Notes under the pieces: model-generated
The model's input: only the letters and a program-made list of their open reading frames with translations
Told to the model about the DNA's origin: nothing
Database searches by the model: none
In this document: piece after piece, positions 635 through 54,558 of the stretch
Layout of the letters: the number at the start of each line of letters is the position of its first letter
Numbering within the stretch: position 1 is the first letter of the stretch
From: a bacterium
Lineage (GTDB): Bacteria; Hydrothermota; UBA3073; JACQXS01
Reading direction: 5' to 3'
NCBI GenBank assembly: GCA_030605695.1
Contig: JAUWHX010000053.1
Coordinates: forward strand, 1 to 54,666
Length of the DNA stretch: 54,666 nucleotides
Translations under genes and position numbers: made by a program

Positions 635-723
635 AACCACAAAGGCTCTAAGGCACAAAGGTCACAAAGATTTTTTAAATATTTCTTGCCTTTGTGTTCT
701 CTGTGTCTTTGTGACTCTGTGGT
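635..723. repeat. Hairpin-forming CACAAAG/CACAGAG repeat pair (MITE-like)
   Basis: The whole porB-rho gap is two inverted arms. Left arm 635-669 carries AACCACAAAG, GGCACAAAG and GTCACAAAG. Right arm 689-723, read in reverse, carries ACCACAGAG, TCACAAAG, ACACAGAG and ACACAAAG. About 20 AT-rich bases separate them. This is the same repeat family that bounds the GxxExxY gene at 50958-51532, but without a gene inside. Confidence 0.75.
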
Positions 724-10970: not shown

Positions 10971-11049
10971 CAAACCCTTAAACCCTTAAACCTTTAAACC
11001 TTTAAACTCTTATTATAATTTTTCTTTTCTCTGTGCTCTCTGTGGTTTA
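10971..11049. repeat. Repeat-filled intergenic gap (CCTTTAAAC array and CACAGAG unit)
   Basis: 10971-11009 is a run of AAACCCTTAAACCCTTAAACC-like units of 7-8 bp. 11029-11049, read in reverse, is AAACCACAGAGAGCACAGAG, the same family as the inverted ends at 50958 and 51532. From 11050 to 11110 the sequence continues with CTTCTTAACTCTTAACCC-type units. No gene is visible in 10960-11149. Confidence 0.7.
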
Positions 11050-12481: not shown

Positions 12482-12594
12482 ATCTGCGTTCATCTTTGTG
12501 CCCTCTGTGTCTTTGTGGTTAATTATTTATTTTTTGCAATCTGTAATTTGTAATCTGCAATAAACTCTCAACTCTCAACTCTTAACTTTTTCAT
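12482..12594. repeat. Dispersed repeats between LVIVD gene and UPF0104 gene
   Basis: 12482-12526, read in reverse, is AACCACAAAG, ACACAGAGG, GCACAAAG, AACGCAGA (CRCARAG family). 12533-12594 continues with GCAATCTGTAATTTGTAATC and CTCAACTCTCAACTCTTAAC tandem units. The unit types match other intergenic and intragenic repeats in the window. Confidence 0.7.
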
Positions 12595-20169: not shown

Positions 20170-21921
20170 ATGAAGAAGAACTGGGTACTGGCTGAATCTG
20201 TTTCAGAAGATAAAGTTGAGAGACTCTCAAATGCTTCAACTCTGTTCAACATAAAAGAGCTTGGCATATCTAAAATTGCATCCGAGATTCTCGTATCCCG
20301 AGGATATATGGAGCCGGAGGAGGCAGATAAATTCCTCAACCCCAAGATTGAAGACCTTCATAGTCCCTTTTTAATGCCCCAGATGGAACAGGCAGTTAAT
20401 CGGATAACGCAGGCAATAAAAGCAAAAGAAAAGATATTAATCTACGGGGATTATGATGTTGACGGAACTACAGCCGCAAGCTTACTCTATAATATATTCA
20501 GGAAATTTGGCTTAACCACGGAAGTTTATATCCCTAATCGCTTAGCAGAAGGATACGGACTAACCGAGAAAGGCGTTGAATATTGCTCAAGCTCTTATGT
20601 AAACTTGATAATTACAGTTGATTGTGGAGTAACTAATGTTGAGGAGGTTAGTTTTTTGCAGGATAACGGCATAGATGTGATAGTAACTGACCATCATGAG
20701 TCGGAGGATAAATTGCCCCCAGCTTTTGCGATTCTTAACCCAAAAGTTGGTGGGGGATATCCATTTCGTGAGCTTTGTGGGTGTGGGATAGCATTTAAAC
20801 TTGGTCAGGCGATTTATGAAAGACTTGGACTTGAGACTCAGGAACTTATGAATTGTCTGGATTTAGTTGCTCTTGCTACAGTGTGTGATGTAACTCCTCT
20901 TGTTGAGGAGAATCGCATAATTGCGAAATACGGGATGAAAACTTTAGCCAATACCCAAAATACTGGCCTTCAAGCTTTGCTTGAGTCTGTAGGGCTTAAA
21001 AATCACTCTATTGATACAAGGCACTTAGGATTTGTGTTAGGTCCGCAAATAAATGCTCGGGGCAGATTGGGTGAAGCAAAAGATGTAGTTAAACTTTTTA
21101 CTACTGCGGATAGGGGAGAAGCAGATAAAATTGCCAATAAACTCAAACAAGAAAATATAGAGAGACGGTCTATTCAGGAAAAGATTCTGGAAGAGGCACT
21201 TCAAGAAGTTGAAAAGATAGATCTTTCCGAGAAAAAGGCAATAGTTCTTGCAAAAAAAGGATGGCATCCCGGGGTGATAGGAATCGTGGCTTCAAGATTG
21301 GTAGAAAAGTTTCATAGGCCGGCAATTCTTATAGATGAAGATAGTGGCAGGGGGTCGGGGAGGTCTATATCGTCATTTCACCTGTATAATACTTTGTCCC
21401 AATGTAAAAAACTTTTAACCAACTTTGGAGGACATCAGCTTGCCGCAGGACTCACTATCGAGCCCAAGAATATTCAATTATTCAAAAAGGAATTCGAGAC
21501 CCTTGCTTTTTCTCAATTGATGTCTGAGGAATTAACACCTAAGTTTTTTATTGATAAGGAGATAACCCATCAAGAAATAACTGAAGATTTATTTAATGAA
21601 GTTCGCAGATTTGCTCCTTTTGGGGTTGGGAATCCGAGACCTGTTTTTCTAACGGAAAGATTACAGGTGGTTGGATATCCTAAAATAGTTGGGAAAAACC
21701 ATATAAAATTTAAAGTGCGTGGCGAGAGGCATACAGGCATTAAAGCAATAGGTTTTAACCTTGGGGGAATTTCAAAGAATTTGGCTACAGGTCAGTACAT
21801 AAACTTAATTTACTCGCTTGACAAAGAACGGTATCGTGGAGAATCCAATATATTGTTAAAAGTTAAAGATATTGAGATTTCAACACAAAAGAACCACAGA
21901 GAACACAGAGAAAAAACTTGA
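20170..21921 (+). CDS. recJ: Single-stranded-DNA-specific exonuclease RecJ
   Basis: 5'-3' ssDNA exonuclease of recombination and mismatch/base repair. The 583 residues contain the DHH-family metal motifs IYGDYDVDGTTAASLL, TVDCGVTN, VTDHHE and CDVTPLV, the DHHA1 domain with GGHQLAAGLTI, and the C-terminal OB domain (RFAPFGVGNPRP). The last ten residues (KNHREHREKT) and the stop are encoded by an AACCACAGAGAACACAGAG repeat, so the natural C-terminus has been replaced or extended. The start follows a repeat array without a Shine-Dalgarno, so translation may depend on queH. Confidence 0.97.
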   Translation: MKKNWVLAESVSEDKVERLSNASTLFNIKELGISKIASEILVSRGYMEPEEADKFLNPKIEDLHSPFLMPQMEQAVNRITQAIKAKEKILIYGDYDVDGTTAASLLYNIFRKFGLTTEVYIPNRLAEGYGLTEKGVEYCSSSYVNLIITVDCGVTNVEEVSFLQDNGIDVIVTDHHESEDKLPPAFAILNPKVGGGYPFRELCGCGIAFKLGQAIYERLGLETQELMNCLDLVALATVCDVTPLVEENRIIAKYGMKTLANTQNTGLQALLESVGLKNHSIDTRHLGFVLGPQINARGRLGEAKDVVKLFTTADRGEADKIANKLKQENIERRSIQEKILEEALQEVEKIDLSEKKAIVLAKKGWHPGVIGIVASRLVEKFHRPAILIDEDSGRGSGRSISSFHLYNTLSQCKKLLTNFGGHQLAAGLTIEPKNIQLFKKEFETLAFSQLMSEELTPKFFIDKEITHQEITEDLFNEVRRFAPFGVGNPRPVFLTERLQVVGYPKIVGKNHIKFKVRGERHTGIKAIGFNLGGISKNLATGQYINLIYSLDKERYRGESNILLKVKDIEISTQKNHREHREKT

Positions 21922-22022
21922 ACCACGAATTACACGAATGAGTTTTTTTAACCGCAGATGAACGCAGGTAGACACAGATTTTTACAAGACAAGATAATCA
22001 CTGCAGAGACGTAGAGAAAAGA
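21892..22022. repeat. Mosaic of dispersed repeats behind recJ
   Basis: 21892-21910 AACCACAGAGAACACAGAG; 21919-21943 TTGAACCACGAATTACACG; 21950-21983 AACCGCAGATGAACGCAGG then TAGACACAG; 22001-22022 CTGCAGAGACGTAGAG. Four end types of the same style abut one another; the first lies inside the recJ reading frame. Confidence 0.8.
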
Positions 22023-48458: not shown

Positions 48459-50933
48459 TCACTTAATCAAAAACATCTTCTTTGTTTTTGTAAAGTCCCC
48501 TGCCTCTAATTTATAAAAATATACACCACTTCCAACCATCTTGCCATTTTTATCTTTCCCATCCCAGCTAACATTGGTAATTGGGTTATTAGGTGATTGT
48601 GGAATTGGTAATATTCTTACTAATCTGCCAGATAAATCGTAAATCGTGATTCGTGCTGGTGGTTCGTGCTGGTCCGAACACGAAAACCGAACACGAATAA
48701 CGGTTTTTTGAGTAAATGGATTTGGATAGTTCTGAAATAATCTTGTGTGGGAAAGGTCTCCTGACCTTGATTCACTTTCTTCTACTCCCGGACATATTCT
48801 ATAATATACAACAAACTTCTGTGCAGTATCCATATTAGCAACAACTTGCAAGCTATCACACACAGAATCAACCCTTACTGTCTGATATATATCATCTATG
48901 CGAATACTATCGTTTCCAGTGCTCGTTTTTACAATAGCTTTCCCTTCATATATTCCTGAACTTGTGTCAGTTTCTATGAGAGCCACGGCTATACCGCTCG
49001 GGTATATACTTGACTTAATAATAGCTACTGCCGCCTCTCTGAATCTTGTATTCCTATCCTCTCCATAAATCCTTAAATACAAAGTATCAGGGTCATCCCA
49101 TAAGGAATCTATTATTACAGAATAATCGTTATCATAATTCCTGACAGAATCTATACTCACTGGTTCTCCTGGCACCCCAGAAATAAAATCATACTCAAAT
49201 GGCATTATATCAGCAGAACCTGCTATAAGATTTTGAATGGTTGTGCTATCAATGAACCACCAAAAGTTATTCTCAAGCGGAAGAATAATACTCGTATTAT
49301 TATCAATATCAGTATCTGGCTGGAAAGTATTGTAGTAAAGATGCGAATTGGAGACTCTAAGTATATCCGAGGTAGAATCAATGAAAGTCATACCCGACTT
49401 TGTATTTCCAATTGAGCCATTATCTACAATAAAACAACTATCAACTACAGTTTTTGAACTATCTGTGCTATAGATAGCACTACCCTTATTGGCTATATTA
49501 TTGATTATTGTATTACCAGTAAGTATTGGCCATGAAAAATCCCAGATGTAAACTCCACCACCACAATCAGCCAAATTATTCTCTATCGTATTGTTTTTAA
49601 TTGCAGGGGAACAGTAATAATTAAAGATAGAAAGTCCACCTCCGGAAACCGATGAGTTTCGTCTTATTATATTATTTTGGATCGTAGAAGAGGCATAATT
49701 AACATAAATGCCTCCACCGCCCACACTTGCCGAATTATTTACTATCCAATTATTCGTAACATTAATAGTTCCAGGTATATCACTCGTGATGCAAACTCCG
49801 CCTCCATAGCTTGCCGAGTTATTCTCTATCGTATTACTATGAATTGTAGAAGAGCACTGATTGATGTAAAACCCACCACCGTGATCATCGGCAGAGTTAT
49901 TCATTACCATATTATTCACTATAGTAGGGGATGAATACCTGATGTAAAGCCCACCTCCATTCCAATAATTTGTTGAGTTATTCTCTATAGTATTATCGAT
50001 AAGAGTAGGAGATGAATTATCCATGATGCACAACCCACCTCCTCTAATATCAGCTGAGTTATTTACTATCGTGCTATTCGTAATTTCAGGAGATGAATTA
50101 TCTGTAATGTAAAGCCCACCTCCATAATCATCACCAAAATTATTCATTATCGTATTATTCTTAAGCGTGGGAGATGAATTATTTATGATGGAAAATCCTC
50201 CTCCGTACCGTGCAGAGTTGTTATCTACTGTATTATTCGTAATCACGGGGAATGAATAATTGCGAATATGAAGTCCACCACCCCAAAAAGCCGGGTGGTT
50301 GTTACTTATCGTGTTATTAGTGATTATAGGCGATGAACCAGAGACGCAAAGTCCACTGCCAATAAATGCATCGTTATTCTCTATCACATTATCAGCAATT
50401 GTAGGACATGACTGACGAATGTAAAGTCCACCACCGTCTTGATAGGCTTCATTGTTAATTATCATACAAGACTCTATTGTAGGTGATGAGCTATTACAAT
50501 AGATACCACCACCACAATCATCAGGCCAAAAGTAACCATTTGCATTTCCACCGGTTATTGTAAATCCTTTTATCATTGCAGCGCGTGAACTCGAATCGCC
50601 AAAACTTGCTGAATCGCAGCAAATAACATGATAAGCTGTGTCAGTAGCTGTGTTATTTAATCCACTTAAGGTGCAGGATTCGGCACCATTGACACTCATA
50701 AAAACTATTGAATCTCGCATCGTGATGCCAAGAGAATCTATATCCCTGACATAATAAATCCCATCGTGCACAAGGACAGTATCTCCAGCACCGGACACAT
50801 TTATAGAATCCTGTATCCCTTGTGCCCCATCTGACTCATAAACATTCCTAACTTCCCCAAAAACCGATACTTGCATTGTCAGAGTTAATATAACACAAGA
50901 AGCTACCAAATATAAGTATTTATATCTAATCAT
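48459..50933 (-). CDS. Exported right-handed beta-helix protein with C-terminal sorting-like module
   Basis: 824 residues, with GGGAGG just before ATG. Signal peptide (YLVASCVILTLTMQVSVFG). Residues about 30-530 are parallel beta-helix turns (NNTIENNSA..GGGLYI..SSPTI.NNTI), a polysaccharide-lyase-like fold also used for binding; no lyase residues can be assigned. Residues about 560-700 are a beta-sandwich region (DDPDTLYLRIYGEDRNTRFREAAVAII). The end, NYPNPFTQ...ITIYDLSGRLVRILPIP...WDGKDKNGKMVGSGVYFYKLEAG, is the sorting-like module. The linker SRSGDLSHT just before it is encoded by a REP palindrome (48741-48770). Confidence 0.85.
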   Translation of the reverse strand: MIRYKYLYLVASCVILTLTMQVSVFGEVRNVYESDGAQGIQDSINVSGAGDTVLVHDGIYYVRDIDSLGITMRDSIVFMSVNGAESCTLSGLNNTATDTAYHVICCDSASFGDSSSRAAMIKGFTITGGNANGYFWPDDCGGGIYCNSSSPTIESCMIINNEAYQDGGGLYIRQSCPTIADNVIENNDAFIGSGLCVSGSSPIITNNTISNNHPAFWGGGLHIRNYSFPVITNNTVDNNSARYGGGFSIINNSSPTLKNNTIMNNFGDDYGGGLYITDNSSPEITNSTIVNNSADIRGGGLCIMDNSSPTLIDNTIENNSTNYWNGGGLYIRYSSPTIVNNMVMNNSADDHGGGFYINQCSSTIHSNTIENNSASYGGGVCITSDIPGTINVTNNWIVNNSASVGGGGIYVNYASSTIQNNIIRRNSSVSGGGLSIFNYYCSPAIKNNTIENNLADCGGGVYIWDFSWPILTGNTIINNIANKGSAIYSTDSSKTVVDSCFIVDNGSIGNTKSGMTFIDSTSDILRVSNSHLYYNTFQPDTDIDNNTSIILPLENNFWWFIDSTTIQNLIAGSADIMPFEYDFISGVPGEPVSIDSVRNYDNDYSVIIDSLWDDPDTLYLRIYGEDRNTRFREAAVAIIKSSIYPSGIAVALIETDTSSGIYEGKAIVKTSTGNDSIRIDDIYQTVRVDSVCDSLQVVANMDTAQKFVVYYRICPGVEESESRSGDLSHTRLFQNYPNPFTQKTVIRVRFSCSDQHEPPARITIYDLSGRLVRILPIPQSPNNPITNVSWDGKDKNGKMVGSGVYFYKLEAGDFTKTKKMFLIK
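48741..48770 (-). repeat. REP palindrome in frame in the beta-helix gene
   Basis: Minus strand TCAAGGTCAGGAGACC then TTTCCCACACAAGA: 21 of 25 core bases match the REP in the 15770-16966 gene, but it is read in a different frame. Confidence 0.8.
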
Positions 50934-50957: not shown

Positions 50958-50987
50958 TTAACCGCAGAGAGCGCAGAGGACACAGAG
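50958..50987 (+). repeat. Left inverted end of GxxExxY unit
   Basis: TTAACCGCAGAGAGCGCAGAG then GACACAGAG split into three CRCAGAG units of 9-10 bp period. Confidence 0.8.
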
Positions 50988-50990
50988 CTT

Positions 50991-51446
50991 TTATTTCTTT
51001 CTCTCCTCGTTCTTTGCAACCTCTACAGTTGCAGTTCTGCATTCTCTGTATCTCTCGCTCAGCACGATGCGTTTTATGCCGTCTTTTATTCTCTCTTCGT
51101 TAAAATTTAACAGCAAGCCTATTTCTAATTTGCTCGCCTTCAGATACGACAAAACTTGTGCCTCATGTATTGGACTCAATTTATTAACTGCCTTTAGCTC
51201 TACAATTACTTTGTCCTCTACCACAAAGTCTAATCTATATTTATGAGCAATAATTTCTTTATAGGGAACCTCAATCTCTAATTGCCGAGTAAATTTTATT
51301 CCTCTTAGACTTAATTCATGAGCAAACGCTTCTTCATAAACATTCTCTCCGAATCCGGGACCCAGTAGTTTATGGACCTCTATCGCACTTCCAATAATTT
51401 CTTTGGTTAAGTGAACTTCTGGAAAGTTATGCTGATTTAGTTTCAA
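50991..51446 (-). CDS. GxxExxY protein (PD-(D/E)XK-like)
   Basis: 151 residues of a common but functionally undefined family named for its motif, here GFGENVY (Gly31, Glu34, Tyr37) within LLGPGFGENVYEEAF. A PD-(D/E)XK nuclease-like core follows: RLDFVVEDKVIVELKAV gives Asp73, Glu83 and Lys85, and Gln97 lies in EAQVLSYLK. All expected acidic/lysine positions are intact. The gene is enclosed by inverted CRCAGAG repeats, the same sequence family scattered through the window. Role unknown; a nuclease acting on those repeats is one hypothesis. Confidence 0.88.
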   Translation of the reverse strand: MKLNQHNFPEVHLTKEIIGSAIEVHKLLGPGFGENVYEEAFAHELSLRGIKFTRQLEIEVPYKEIIAHKYRLDFVVEDKVIVELKAVNKLSPIHEAQVLSYLKASKLEIGLLLNFNEERIKDGIKRIVLSERYRECRTATVEVAKNEERKK

Positions 51447-51501
51447 GGTCTACCTCCTATTTTTGAGACCACAGAGTTTTATAAAACCATTCTCAATTTT
51501 T

Positions 51502-51532
51502 CCTCTGCGTTCTCTGCGAACTCTGTGGTTAA
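51502..51532 (-). repeat. Right inverted end of GxxExxY unit
   Basis: In reverse: TTAACCACAGAG, TTCGCAGAG, AACGCAGAGG. An extra inward ACCACAGAG lies at 51469-51477. Overlaps the stop codon (51529-51531) of the next gene. Confidence 0.8.
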
Positions 51533-54500
51533 CCCTTTTTCTCATAATCGCATATCACCCGACAGGAGCAAAATTTACACACCATATACTTGGGTCTCGG
51601 CTCAAAATCCAATTCCCGCACCCCTTGAGCTACTTCCTTAATAGTCTCTTTTATCTTCTCAACTTTTTTATCAATATCTTTTAATTCGCCCTGTATATCT
51701 GTCTCGACAAAATAAAACTTTACATCGTCTGGAAGTTTATTAAACCTTTCCTGATAAGCAAGAGCATAAATTGGAAGCTGAACACTATTTCTCACTCTCT
51801 GCCCCGCTTTTTCTTTAGTCTCCACCTCTCCAGTCTTATAATCAGTTATCACTCCTCCTAAGTTTTGAGCTTTGAGCTTTGAGCTTTGAGCTTCTATATC
51901 TACTCTGTCCCATCGTCCTCTAACTTTCACATCCTCAAGAAGAAAAGAAAAACTCTCTTCAACATAGGTAGGCATCCGACCATCAGCTTCTTCTCGTTCA
52001 ACGAAATTTCTTAAAACCTCCTCCCCACGCTTGAACCTTTGCTCTTCGTGCTCTCTTGAATGGAATCCTTCATTTACCCAATAATCCTTAAATACACGCA
52101 AAACCTTCTCAAATTCCATCTTTTTCCCTGATTTCTTAGCCAGAAGATAATTTTCTATTGCCTTATGCACAGCAAATCCATAAACCATCGCATGATGCTT
52201 TGGAATCGGCACCCGAAGCCAGTTTATATACCAATACTTACGAGGACAGGTAATCCAATTATCTATAGAACTACTTGATAAACTCAACACTTCTTTTCTT
52301 TTAAGCAATTTACCTTCTGCTTCCTTAGCCCCCTTAAACCGCTCAATCTGTTCTTTTGAGTCCTTTTTCTTGGCAATAATCTCGCCTTTTGAAAGGTCAA
52401 GTGCCTCCATAATAAACTGAGATGGTTTGCGTTCTCTCCTTCCTCCATAGTCTCTTGCACTCGTGAGAATCAACTCTTCTTTTGCCCGCGTCATCCCTAC
52501 ATAAAATAACCTTCTCTCCTCCTGAGTTCGTAAAAGAGATTCATCCAAAGAAGGCACTGGCTCTTTTATTAAATCAAGCGGAAGTTCAACCAAAGTGGGC
52601 ATTCTGCGATGAGGAAAGCTGTCTGCTACAAGCCCGGCAATCACAACAACTCTAAATTCAAGTCCTTTTGCCTTATGAACTGTCAGAATATTAACTGCAT
52701 CTATATCAAAATCTGCCTCAGCAACTGGTGGATTCTCGCCCAGCTCCATTAAACTTTCTATATGTTCTCGGACAAAAGGAACTTTATCTGTTTGGATTAT
52801 TCCGCTTACTTTATCAACGATTGATAAAAACTCTGCTATATTCTTTATCTGAAGTTCACTTTCAAGCGAAGGATTACTCACAAGTTCTTTAAGCCAGCCA
52901 GTCCGTGAGAGAAACTCATATAATACTCGCCCAGCTGACTTTTTCGTTGATAGTTCCATAAAATATTCAAGGTCATCTAAAAATCCTTTAATTGCGGCTT
53001 TTCCTTTGTCGGATAGGTTTTCTGTATATTGTCTTCTGATTTCTGATTTTAATATTCCATATAAGGACTTCCTGCGACGATTAGCCAGAGCAAGACACCT
53101 ACTAAGGTCAATTGCTGATATCCCGTAAGCAGGAGAATTTATAACACGATAAAGAGATTGCGTATCTTCGATGTTAGATACTAACCTGAGCACAGATATT
53201 AAAACTTGCACCTCATCTTTATCATAAAGTCCTTGGTTCCCAGCAGACTTCCATGGTATGCCTTTCAAATTAAATGCCCTGATAAATGGGTCTTGAAGCT
53301 GATTGGTGCGAATAAGAATTGCAAAATCGCTATACTTATAATCTGTCTCTTGTCTCTTGTCTCTTGTCTCTTGTCTCTTAATTACTCTATCTTCTATTAA
53401 ATCAGCTATCGCATCTGCCTCACTTCCCACACTATCATAATGCCAATACTTTACATCCCCTCCGAATAAGTCTAATTGTCCTTTCTGTGACTTGGGACTT
53501 GTGACTTGTGACTTGAGACTTTTATCCACTCCTACTTTTATTTCCAATCTCTCTGGATTATTGAAAATTATCAATCGCCGAGAGGCATCTAAAATCGACT
53601 GCCTGCTCCTATAGTTATCTGTGAGAACTATAGTATGAGCATTAGGATACATATCCTTAAATGATAAAATGTTCGCAAGACAAGCACCACGAAACTTATA
53701 AATTGACTGGTCATCATCTCCAACTACCGTCAGATTCCGATACCCTTTTTTATCGTAGCTCAGGGGATTATCTCCCACCAAAAGCTTCAAGAGCTGAAAC
53801 TGTGAATAATTAGTGTCCTGAAACTCATCTACCAAAATATACTTATACCGAGTTTGCAACTTTCTTAGCACACTTTTCCTGTCCCTTAAAAGCTTTAATA
53901 ACAAAGCTATTAAGCTTGGCATATCTACATAACTCGCTTCTCTTAAAAGTTCCTCGTATTTCTCATAACATTTCGCAATCTCTATTTGCTTTTCTGCATC
54001 CTCTCGCTCTTCATCAGAATCAGCTTTCTCATACTTTGATTTCGCATACTCAAGATACTCTTCTGCAGAAACATCTTCATCTTTGGCTCGGGATATAACA
54101 GTCAAAAGAGCTTGTAAATACTTCGTTGGATATGAAAGGGGTCTGAAATACTTGAGCGGAAACTCCCAGAGCTGTTCTCTCAAGAAAACAAGCAATTCTG
54201 GAGTGCTGAGGACTCTGAAACCGGGTGATATACCGAGTTCAAAGGCATATTCCCTTAAAATACTCTGCCCAAAAGAATGAAAGGTGCTTATCTCAACAGG
54301 CGACCATCCATAAGGAACAAGAACATCAACTCTTTCTTCCATCTCATTTGCCGATTTATCTGTAAAAGTGAGTCCAAGTATTTCTTCGGGTTTAGCAATC
54401 TTTTGGGCAATAAGCCAGGCAATACGATGGGTTATTACTTTGGTCTTTCCGGTTCCAGCACCTGCTATTATTAAAAGAGGACCCTTTTCCCAGGTAACTG

Positions 54501-54558
54501 CTTCAAGTTGCTTCTCATTAAGTCCACTTAAAATTTCCTTCTCTATTTTGCTTTGCAT
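51529..54558 (-). CDS. UvrD-family helicase with C-terminal PD-(D/E)XK nuclease (AddA/RecB-like)
   Basis: 1009 residues. Helicase motifs: Walker A IAGAGTGKTKV (Lys38), FTDKSANEM, ISTFHSFGQSIL, VDEFQDTNYSQF, VGDDDQSIYKFRGA, LTDNYRSR, NILTVHKAKGLEF, LFYVGMTRAKEELILT. From about residue 770: CPRKYWYINW, GRWDRVDIE, VITDYKTGE, QLPIYALAY and terminal CKFCSCRVICDY, the AddB/Cas4-type nuclease with a probable Fe-S cluster (one Cys in CPRKYW, three at the end). Three in-frame short-repeat inserts lie at 53486-53520, 53344-53380 and 51863-51893. The last is between the two catalytic strands. The stop codon lies in a CRCAGAG repeat. Acts in end-processing or repair. Confidence 0.93.
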   Translation of the reverse strand: MQSKIEKEILSGLNEKQLEAVTWEKGPLLIIAGAGTGKTKVITHRIAWLIAQKIAKPEEILGLTFTDKSANEMEERVDVLVPYGWSPVEISTFHSFGQSILREYAFELGISPGFRVLSTPELLVFLREQLWEFPLKYFRPLSYPTKYLQALLTVISRAKDEDVSAEEYLEYAKSKYEKADSDEEREDAEKQIEIAKCYEKYEELLREASYVDMPSLIALLLKLLRDRKSVLRKLQTRYKYILVDEFQDTNYSQFQLLKLLVGDNPLSYDKKGYRNLTVVGDDDQSIYKFRGACLANILSFKDMYPNAHTIVLTDNYRSRQSILDASRRLIIFNNPERLEIKVGVDKSLKSQVTSPKSQKGQLDLFGGDVKYWHYDSVGSEADAIADLIEDRVIKRQETRDKRQETDYKYSDFAILIRTNQLQDPFIRAFNLKGIPWKSAGNQGLYDKDEVQVLISVLRLVSNIEDTQSLYRVINSPAYGISAIDLSRCLALANRRRKSLYGILKSEIRRQYTENLSDKGKAAIKGFLDDLEYFMELSTKKSAGRVLYEFLSRTGWLKELVSNPSLESELQIKNIAEFLSIVDKVSGIIQTDKVPFVREHIESLMELGENPPVAEADFDIDAVNILTVHKAKGLEFRVVVIAGLVADSFPHRRMPTLVELPLDLIKEPVPSLDESLLRTQEERRLFYVGMTRAKEELILTSARDYGGRRERKPSQFIMEALDLSKGEIIAKKKDSKEQIERFKGAKEAEGKLLKRKEVLSLSSSSIDNWITCPRKYWYINWLRVPIPKHHAMVYGFAVHKAIENYLLAKKSGKKMEFEKVLRVFKDYWVNEGFHSREHEEQRFKRGEEVLRNFVEREEADGRMPTYVEESFSFLLEDVKVRGRWDRVDIEAQSSKLKAQNLGGVITDYKTGEVETKEKAGQRVRNSVQLPIYALAYQERFNKLPDDVKFYFVETDIQGELKDIDKKVEKIKETIKEVAQGVRELDFEPRPKYMVCKFCSCRVICDYEKKG
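51863..51893. repeat. TTTGAGC tandem array inside the helicase-nuclease gene
   Basis: Four 8-bp units of TTTGAGCT type, read as SSKLKAQ in the loop between the WDRVD and ITDYKTG nuclease strands. Confidence 0.8.
53344..53380. repeat. GTCTCTT tandem array inside the helicase-nuclease gene
   Basis: Five perfect 7-bp units, read as RQETRDKRQET. Confidence 0.85.
53486..53520. repeat. GTGACTTG tandem array inside the helicase-nuclease gene
   Basis: Four 8-bp-like units (TGTGACTTGGGACTTGTGAC type), read as SLKSQVTSPKSQK just before LDLFGG. Confidence 0.75.

Follow-up and report, generated by a model that had tools for sequence, protein, structure and literature searches.

The locus described here raises the question of whether a small GxxExxY gene and the short inverted repeats at its two ends form a mobile unit, and whether the encoded protein itself acts on these repeats. 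The locus lies in a window of 54,666 nucleotides (the whole stretch of DNA that was analysed), in which a first-pass annotation had proposed a mobile unit resembling RAYT/REP with a different nuclease. The coordinates of the cassette, of its two neighbours and of the other array sites in the window are collected in Table 1.

Table 1. Positions of the cassette (locus L001), its neighbouring genes and further repeat arrays in the window.
Feature	Position	Strand	Remarks
Left end of cassette	50958-50987	+	TTAACCGCAGAG AG CGCAGAG GA CACAGAG; three inward-pointing units; read from the sequence
GxxExxY gene	50991-51446	-	151 aa; TIGR04256, PF13366
Extra CACAGAG unit, inside the right end	51470-51476	+	Pattern search of the window
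Right end of cassette, inverted copy	51503-51532	-	TTAACCACAGAG TT CGCAGAG AA CGCAGAG (minus strand, 51532 to 51503)
UvrD/AddA-type helicase-nuclease, neighbour outside the cassette	51529-54558	-	PF00580, PF13361, PF12705; C-terminus abuts the cassette
Secreted beta-helix protein, neighbour outside the cassette	48459-50933	-	PF13229; same neighbour in sister species G133
Gene-less hairpin, same architecture as the cassette	635-723	.	Mixed CACAAAG/CACAGAG, mostly CACAAAG units
Gene-less CACAGAG half-array	11029-11049	-	Pattern search, flank reading
Gene-less half-array, mixed flavour	12482-12526	-	Single exact CACAGAG
Gene-less CACAGAG half-array	21892-21910	+	Followed directly by CACGAAT and CGCAGAT half-arrays

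The outer ends of the two arms are exact inverted copies of TTAACC(G/A)CAGAG, and each arm contains three CRCAGAGNN units, nine bases apart, that run inward. A pattern search of the window placed the CRCAGAG matches of the left end at 50963, 50972 and 50981 and those of the right end at 51503, 51512 and 51521. The inverted pair was also detected without any preset motif, and the window contains 19 CRCAGAG matches where 7.1 would be expected; none of 100 shuffles gave as many as 19. Additionally, the stricter pair RCAGAGNNCRCAGAG gave 70 matches across the 93 contigs (1.98 Mb) of G000, the genome to which the window belongs, and the reversed-pattern control gave 0. The ends described by the first-pass annotation, with three CRCAGAG units in each arm, were confirmed in this way by sequence, by shuffles and by a genome-wide pattern control. 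When the two arms are joined, they fold as single strands far better than shuffled sequences (z of -7.3 for the focal arms and -10.0 for an AT-flavour arm pair). The extra CACAGAG unit inside the right end has the orientation opposite to that of the right array and could pair with it. The gene between the arms starts with TTG, and AGGAGG is located upstream of this codon.

The site was compared with that of the sister species G133, where the helicase gene (93% identical) and the beta-helix gene are kept and a gene-less CACAAAG hairpin lies between them. According to this comparison, the TAA stop codon of the focal helicase is formed by the right outer end of the cassette, GGGTTAACC, and the stop codon in G133 differs, which bears out the earlier observation that the right arm overlaps the stop of the neighbouring gene. 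Cassettes can alter neighbouring proteins at their ends: the focal helicase stop (window 51529-51534) comes from the array, and in the gene before the cassette L140 the array units encode a gained C-terminus, KKTTEERQNTD, where the sister species reads KLYETR.

In profile searches, the focal protein matched TIGR04256 (E 2.4e-44, 150.4 bits, cut-off 35) and PF13366 (E 7.7e-43, 146 bits, cut-off 22); these searches detected no other domain, neither the HUH Y1 transposase domain (PF01797) nor a DDE domain. A sequence-profile search for solved structures found no PDB relative. The best PDB matches obtained with Foldseek for the AlphaFold2 model (pLDDT 88.9) were LHK-Exo (E 1.1e-3, TM 0.50), lambda exonuclease, Cas4 SSO0001 and MGME1, all with moderate scores. 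The conserved residues of the family are G31..E34..Y37, D73, E83-x-K85 and Q97; among 67 sequences, D73 and K85 are invariant, and E83 and Q97 are conserved in at least 90%. The arrangement D...ExK...Q is that of active enzymes of the lambda-exonuclease/Cas4 group. From the modelled fold and these residues, the focal protein is predicted to be a lambda-exonuclease/Cas4-like PD-(D/E)XK nuclease. Between near-identical cassette copies the dN/dS ratio is 0.00-0.20, and the protein is therefore kept functional under strong purifying selection. A clear GxxExxY member was found in 53 of the 147 genomes of the phylum, with up to 19 matches in a single genome, and relatives occur in many other phyla, including an archaeon and cyanobacteria. 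No source that we searched assigns a function to GxxExxY proteins.

The focal cassette is one case of a general rule, namely a GxxExxY gene placed between inverted arrays of short repeats. The survey comprised 196 GxxExxY loci, 116 from the phylum of the window and 80 from many other phyla. As a motif-free test, the left flank of 250 bp was aligned with the reverse complement of the right flank. The mean score of 111 phylum loci was 32.1, compared with 18.9 for mispaired flanks and approximately 17.7 for flanks moved outward, and that of 72 loci from other phyla was 43.8, compared with 20.6 and approximately 18, respectively. Inverted repeats at the gene's own ends (scores exceeding 199 of 200 shuffles) were found in 78% of the 111 phylum loci and in 88% of the 72 loci from other phyla, the latter set representing one large clade, since it was found through one conserved peptide. 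Displaced flanks passed the same per-locus shuffle test in 1 of 100 cases in the phylum and in 2 of 67 cases in the other phyla, and only 0.4% of 447 neighbouring ORFs scored 30 or more. Part of the data consists of draft metagenome assemblies, and genomes of the same phylum are not independent. A chance origin of the ends is ruled out by the shuffles, the displaced flanks, the mispaired flanks and the neighbouring genes. It was also expected from the first-pass annotation that CRCAGAG arrays would be enriched at GxxExxY loci; arrays do flank these genes far beyond control genes, but CRCAGAG specifically is only one of their flavours.

In AG-flavour loci, exactly three units are present in 132 of 163 arms, the spacing is mostly 8-9 bases and the outer end reads ACC; AT-flavour arms contain two or three units with a spacing of 9-10. 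The units of the loci from other phyla are nearly always CRCNRAG. Among these loci, Sphingomonas parapaucimobilis YK209 has a GxxExxY gene (L419) with CACGCGAAG arms between fabD and fabG. In plasmid 1 of Gemmatirosa kalamazoonensis, a named sequenced strain, a GxxExxY gene (L418) has a complete CGCAGAG hairpin of about 85 bp on each side.

The genome of the window contains seven full GxxExxY genes and one fragment. CRCAGAG flanks only one of the seven, the copy in the window; the remaining genes have CACGAAT, CGCAGAT, GGACGCAGAT, GGGAAAA or CACTAAG units, mostly on both sides and in inverted orientation. CRCAGAG is thus one flavour among several, which also include CGCAGAT, CACGAAT and CACTGAA. 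Many array sites of this genome are gene-less short hairpins with the order AACC, units, a loop of about 20-110 bases, units, GGTT. Three of them (L015, L020 and L049) have a common interior as well as common units, and therefore resemble copies of a single miniature element that has become dispersed. The gene-less CRCAGAG sites reported earlier in the window do contain the repeats, but those at 635-723, 12482-12526 and 21892-21910 are of mixed flavour. Half-arrays of different flavours can be clustered, as with CACAGAG, CACGAAT and CGCAGAT in a row at 21892-21990 of the window (other examples among loci L350-L392); such clusters look as if older arrays attract new ones.

CRCAGAG as a general signal of GxxExxY genes was rejected, each protein clade having its own flavour. 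The 116 phylum proteins were placed on a tree, and 76 of their loci could be labelled with a flavour class (AG, AT or AA). The class changes 7 times on this tree, compared with a mean of 32.6 (minimum 25) after full shuffling of the labels and 22.5 (minimum 13) after shuffling within genomes; the tree is based on few columns and has many weak forks, and this result is independent of the deep ones. For 72 of the 76 loci, the flavour agrees with that of the nearest protein from another genome (38% by chance), fourteen genomes contain more than one flavour, and some of the unlabelled loci also form clades with their own repeats. These data show that the flavour tracks the protein clade and not the host. 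Joint inheritance of arms and gene could alone make the flavour follow the protein, which weakens the reading of the arrays as cognate targets; selection on the arms is nevertheless suggested by the fact that the units are conserved although identity between the proteins has dropped to about 45%. The cognate match is evident only where arrays border their gene: across whole genomes, AG and AT arrays that lack a gene are both abundant, whichever gene flavour is sampled, and matching at the genome level (AG arrays with AG genes, AT with AT) gave no discrimination among the 147 phylum genomes.

Evidence for movement was obtained from copies within genomes and from sister species. Where a genome has near-identical copies, their common DNA begins and ends with the outer units, and the flanks are unrelated (L063, L088 and L091 in G135; L127, L128 and L151 in G012; L069 and L097 in G126), and the element boundaries could be read from dispersed copies in G135, G012, G138 and G126. 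The cassettes L140 and L141 of G138 have cleanly empty sites in the sister species G137, where the site of L140 reads TGTATGAAATTATATGAAACC; empty sites in close relatives, for which the first-pass annotation had proposed a search, therefore exist, and insertion at plain gene junctions is shown. The cassettes L132, L152 and L096 are likewise absent from sister species. Target duplications, also envisaged earlier, proved to be absent or at most 2 bp: none above 2 bp was present at the clean L140 and L141 sites and none was seen among the G135 and G126 copies. We conclude that the gene, together with one inverted three-unit array on each side, makes up a mobile cassette of about 0.5-0.6 kb. It is very improbable that the arrays simply terminate transcription, or are intergenic hairpins of some other ordinary kind located beside the gene by chance; they are indeed intergenic and fold well, but this explanation is contradicted by the neighbouring genes and the displaced flanks of the survey, by the flavour that tracks the protein and by copies that move as gene plus arms.

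L096 lies within a different, larger MITE, and its insertion may therefore be the doing of that MITE. The ends of the latter are GGTAGTGCCAAATAG..TTTGACAATAC, and its left end has dozens of matches per genome (G142 and G143). One copy carries a GxxExxY cassette, and the empty site in G143 has a likely AATATTA duplication. In G142, the cassette on C134 (L262) is inverted and decayed at the site of the G143 cassette L147, which suggests inversion between the arms. Moreover, palindromic inserts (CCCCGTTAGAT..CTAACGGGG and CCCTGTTAAATA..TTTAACAGGG) were found within the CGCAGAT arms of L127, L151, L144, L146, L251 and L262. In the cases that were read they lie after CAGATTCA or CAGATGAA, and they seem to be another small element that targets CGCAGAT arrays.

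We propose, with a probability of roughly two in three, that the GxxExxY protein recognises and cuts arrays of its own flavour and thereby spreads both the cassette and the gene-less hairpins. The protein would recognise the tandem units of this flavour, perhaps when they are folded as a single strand or form a cruciform, and would cut at them, after which the cassette or a gene-less hairpin would be copied to a new place. Gene-less hairpins of the form AACC(unit)2-3..loop..(unit)2-3GGTT would be non-autonomous relatives of the cassette. That no target duplication reached 3 bp favours a repair-based or single-strand-based insertion over DDE transposition.

A related possibility is homing, in which the hairpins come first and the genes fill them: the nuclease would cut existing gene-less arrays, and the cassette would be copied in by homologous repair through the arms, in the manner of homing endonucleases. 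The absence of target duplication is in agreement with homing, as are a fold class that makes breaks rather than strand transfers and the fact that gene and hairpin have essentially only the arms in common. Four orthologous sister sites do contain a gene-less array opposite the cassette (that of L001 in G133, and those of L139, L092 and L104). Some cassettes, such as L104, probably inserted into an older array or next to one. However, five sister sites have no array, L140, L141, L132 and L152 having entered such sites, and the arrays at sister sites are mostly of another flavour. Additionally, PD-(D/E)XK enzymes of the lambda-exonuclease/Cas4 type are usually not site-specific, which we also count against homing, and we consider this explanation unlikely.

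AG arrays reach a mean of 24.0 per genome in the 53 phylum genomes with a strong GxxExxY match and 0.88 in the 94 without, so that the repeats are not equally common where the gene is lacking, in agreement with the first-pass annotation. At least 5 AG arrays are present in 30 of the 53 genomes with the gene and in 4 of the 94 without it (Fisher 7.5e-13, although the genomes are not independent draws); counted by family, the corresponding numbers are 14 of 18 and 1 of 19 (p 7e-6). AT arrays show 8.9 per genome with GxxExxY and 0.23 without. The four genomes with at least 5 AG arrays and no strong gene match are G013, G020, G064 and G094. In the 41 genomes with RAYT and without GxxExxY, the mean is 1.4 AG arrays. 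RAYT as the driver of these arrays is not supported, since the array number follows GxxExxY and RAYT has its own repeats, of the GGGGTCA type and others.

Two further gene families were analysed for comparison. RAYT genes of the same genomes, used as a positive control, were flanked in 78% of cases, by GGGGTCA-type and other repeats. The RAYT-like Y1_Tnp genes of the phylum (L308-L337) have long inverted repeats at both ends, often starting with GGGGTCAGACCT or GGGGTCAAATCT. Genes for four-helix-bundle proteins (S23/TIGR02436; L278-L307) scored 30 or more at 69% of 29 loci, and are located between inverted arrays with a period of 7 bp (AACAGCT, GGTTCAA, AGTAACG, CGTAAAT, AGTGGTC and others). 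Since these genes sit in analogous but different arrays, the layout does not depend on a nuclease. Because three unrelated families share this layout, each with its own repeat type, we argue for a family-specific coupling. The four-helix-bundle genes and their heptamer arrays may constitute a second system built on the same plan. Heptamer repeats have been described in cyanobacteria and Beggiatoaceae (PMC4679880), and those of the four-helix-bundle genes are perhaps related to them.

The shared layout has also to be weighed as an argument for GxxExxY genes being passengers, trapped between arms whose movement depends on host repair, RAYT or other transposases; the genes would then be retained for a different purpose, for instance defence or repair. 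The occurrence of arrays without the gene in some genomes and the location of L096 within another MITE would fit this explanation as well. Against it stand an array type that is specific to the protein family and, inside the family, to the clade, and array numbers that follow GxxExxY and not RAYT. Moreover, when array pairs 395-425 bp apart were collected regardless of their content (n=29), GxxExxY was found within 12 pairs, 17 contained no recognisable gene, and none of the 29 contained another recognisable gene. Relatives of the query were present in only 7 of 72,556 plasmid records and none was confirmed in the IMG/VR scan, unlike typical cargo. We therefore regard the passenger role as improbable, even more so than homing.

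The cassette works like RAYT/REPIN, but it is not a member of that group, as the HUH domain is absent. Both systems (RAYT/REPIN: PMC3116915, PMC8266576) consist of a chromosomal single gene between inverted cognate repeats, show several flavours within one genome, with each flavour next to the gene it belongs to (in the cassettes the flavour is specific to the gene clade), and have gene-less hairpin doublets dispersed between genes with no target duplication of note. They differ in the protein, a PD-(D/E)XK nuclease in the cassette and a HUH tyrosine nuclease in RAYT, and in the ends, which have three tandem degenerate units per arm in the cassette and one palindromic REP in RAYT. Additionally, RAYTs have been described as single copies (PMC3116915), whereas several recent copies of a cassette are found within one genome. 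Of the RAYT/REP-like mobile unit with a different nuclease that was proposed initially, the mobility stands, with dispersed copies and empty sites, but CRCAGAG is not general and the layout does not need a nuclease.

DDE insertion sequences and their MITEs are similar in that terminal inverted repeats enclose the gene, short relatives without the gene exist, copies are dispersed and some sites are empty. The cassette differs in that it contains no DDE protein, any target duplication at its clean sites is shorter than 3 bp, and its ends are tandem arrays. Homing endonucleases of the PD-(D/E)XK class exist, for example I-Ssp6803I, and, like the cassette, involve a small nuclease gene that spreads to sites without it. 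The cassette, however, lies outside introns and inteins, carries its own repeat ends and has several insertions at array-less sister sites. The four-helix-bundle genes resemble it in being small genes between inverted tandem arrays, but the protein is unrelated and the units have a 7-bp period, such as AACAGCT and GGTTCAA, and not CRCNRAG. In the open-access literature we found no report of the present repeat strings as bacterial repeats and no link between GxxExxY and repeats, although its limited coverage makes both negatives weak.

A broader proposal, which in our judgement has an even chance of being correct, is that these cassettes represent a widespread class of mobile elements. In this class, a lambda-exonuclease/Cas4-like PD-(D/E)XK protein, and not a transposase, would spread itself and gene-less hairpins by means of clade-specific tandem units with a 7-bp core, and the four-helix-bundle genes with heptamer arrays would form a second, independent class. 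The present results give GxxExxY proteins a likely role, name the DNA on which each clade should act, and account for families of short, degenerate repeats that lie scattered through intergenic regions. If the proposed cutting of own-flavour arrays is true, RAYT/REPIN would not be a one-off, and repeat-spreading systems would have arisen more than once with unrelated enzymes. If both classes are true, they would account for a large part of the short degenerate repeats in many uncultured and environmental bacteria.
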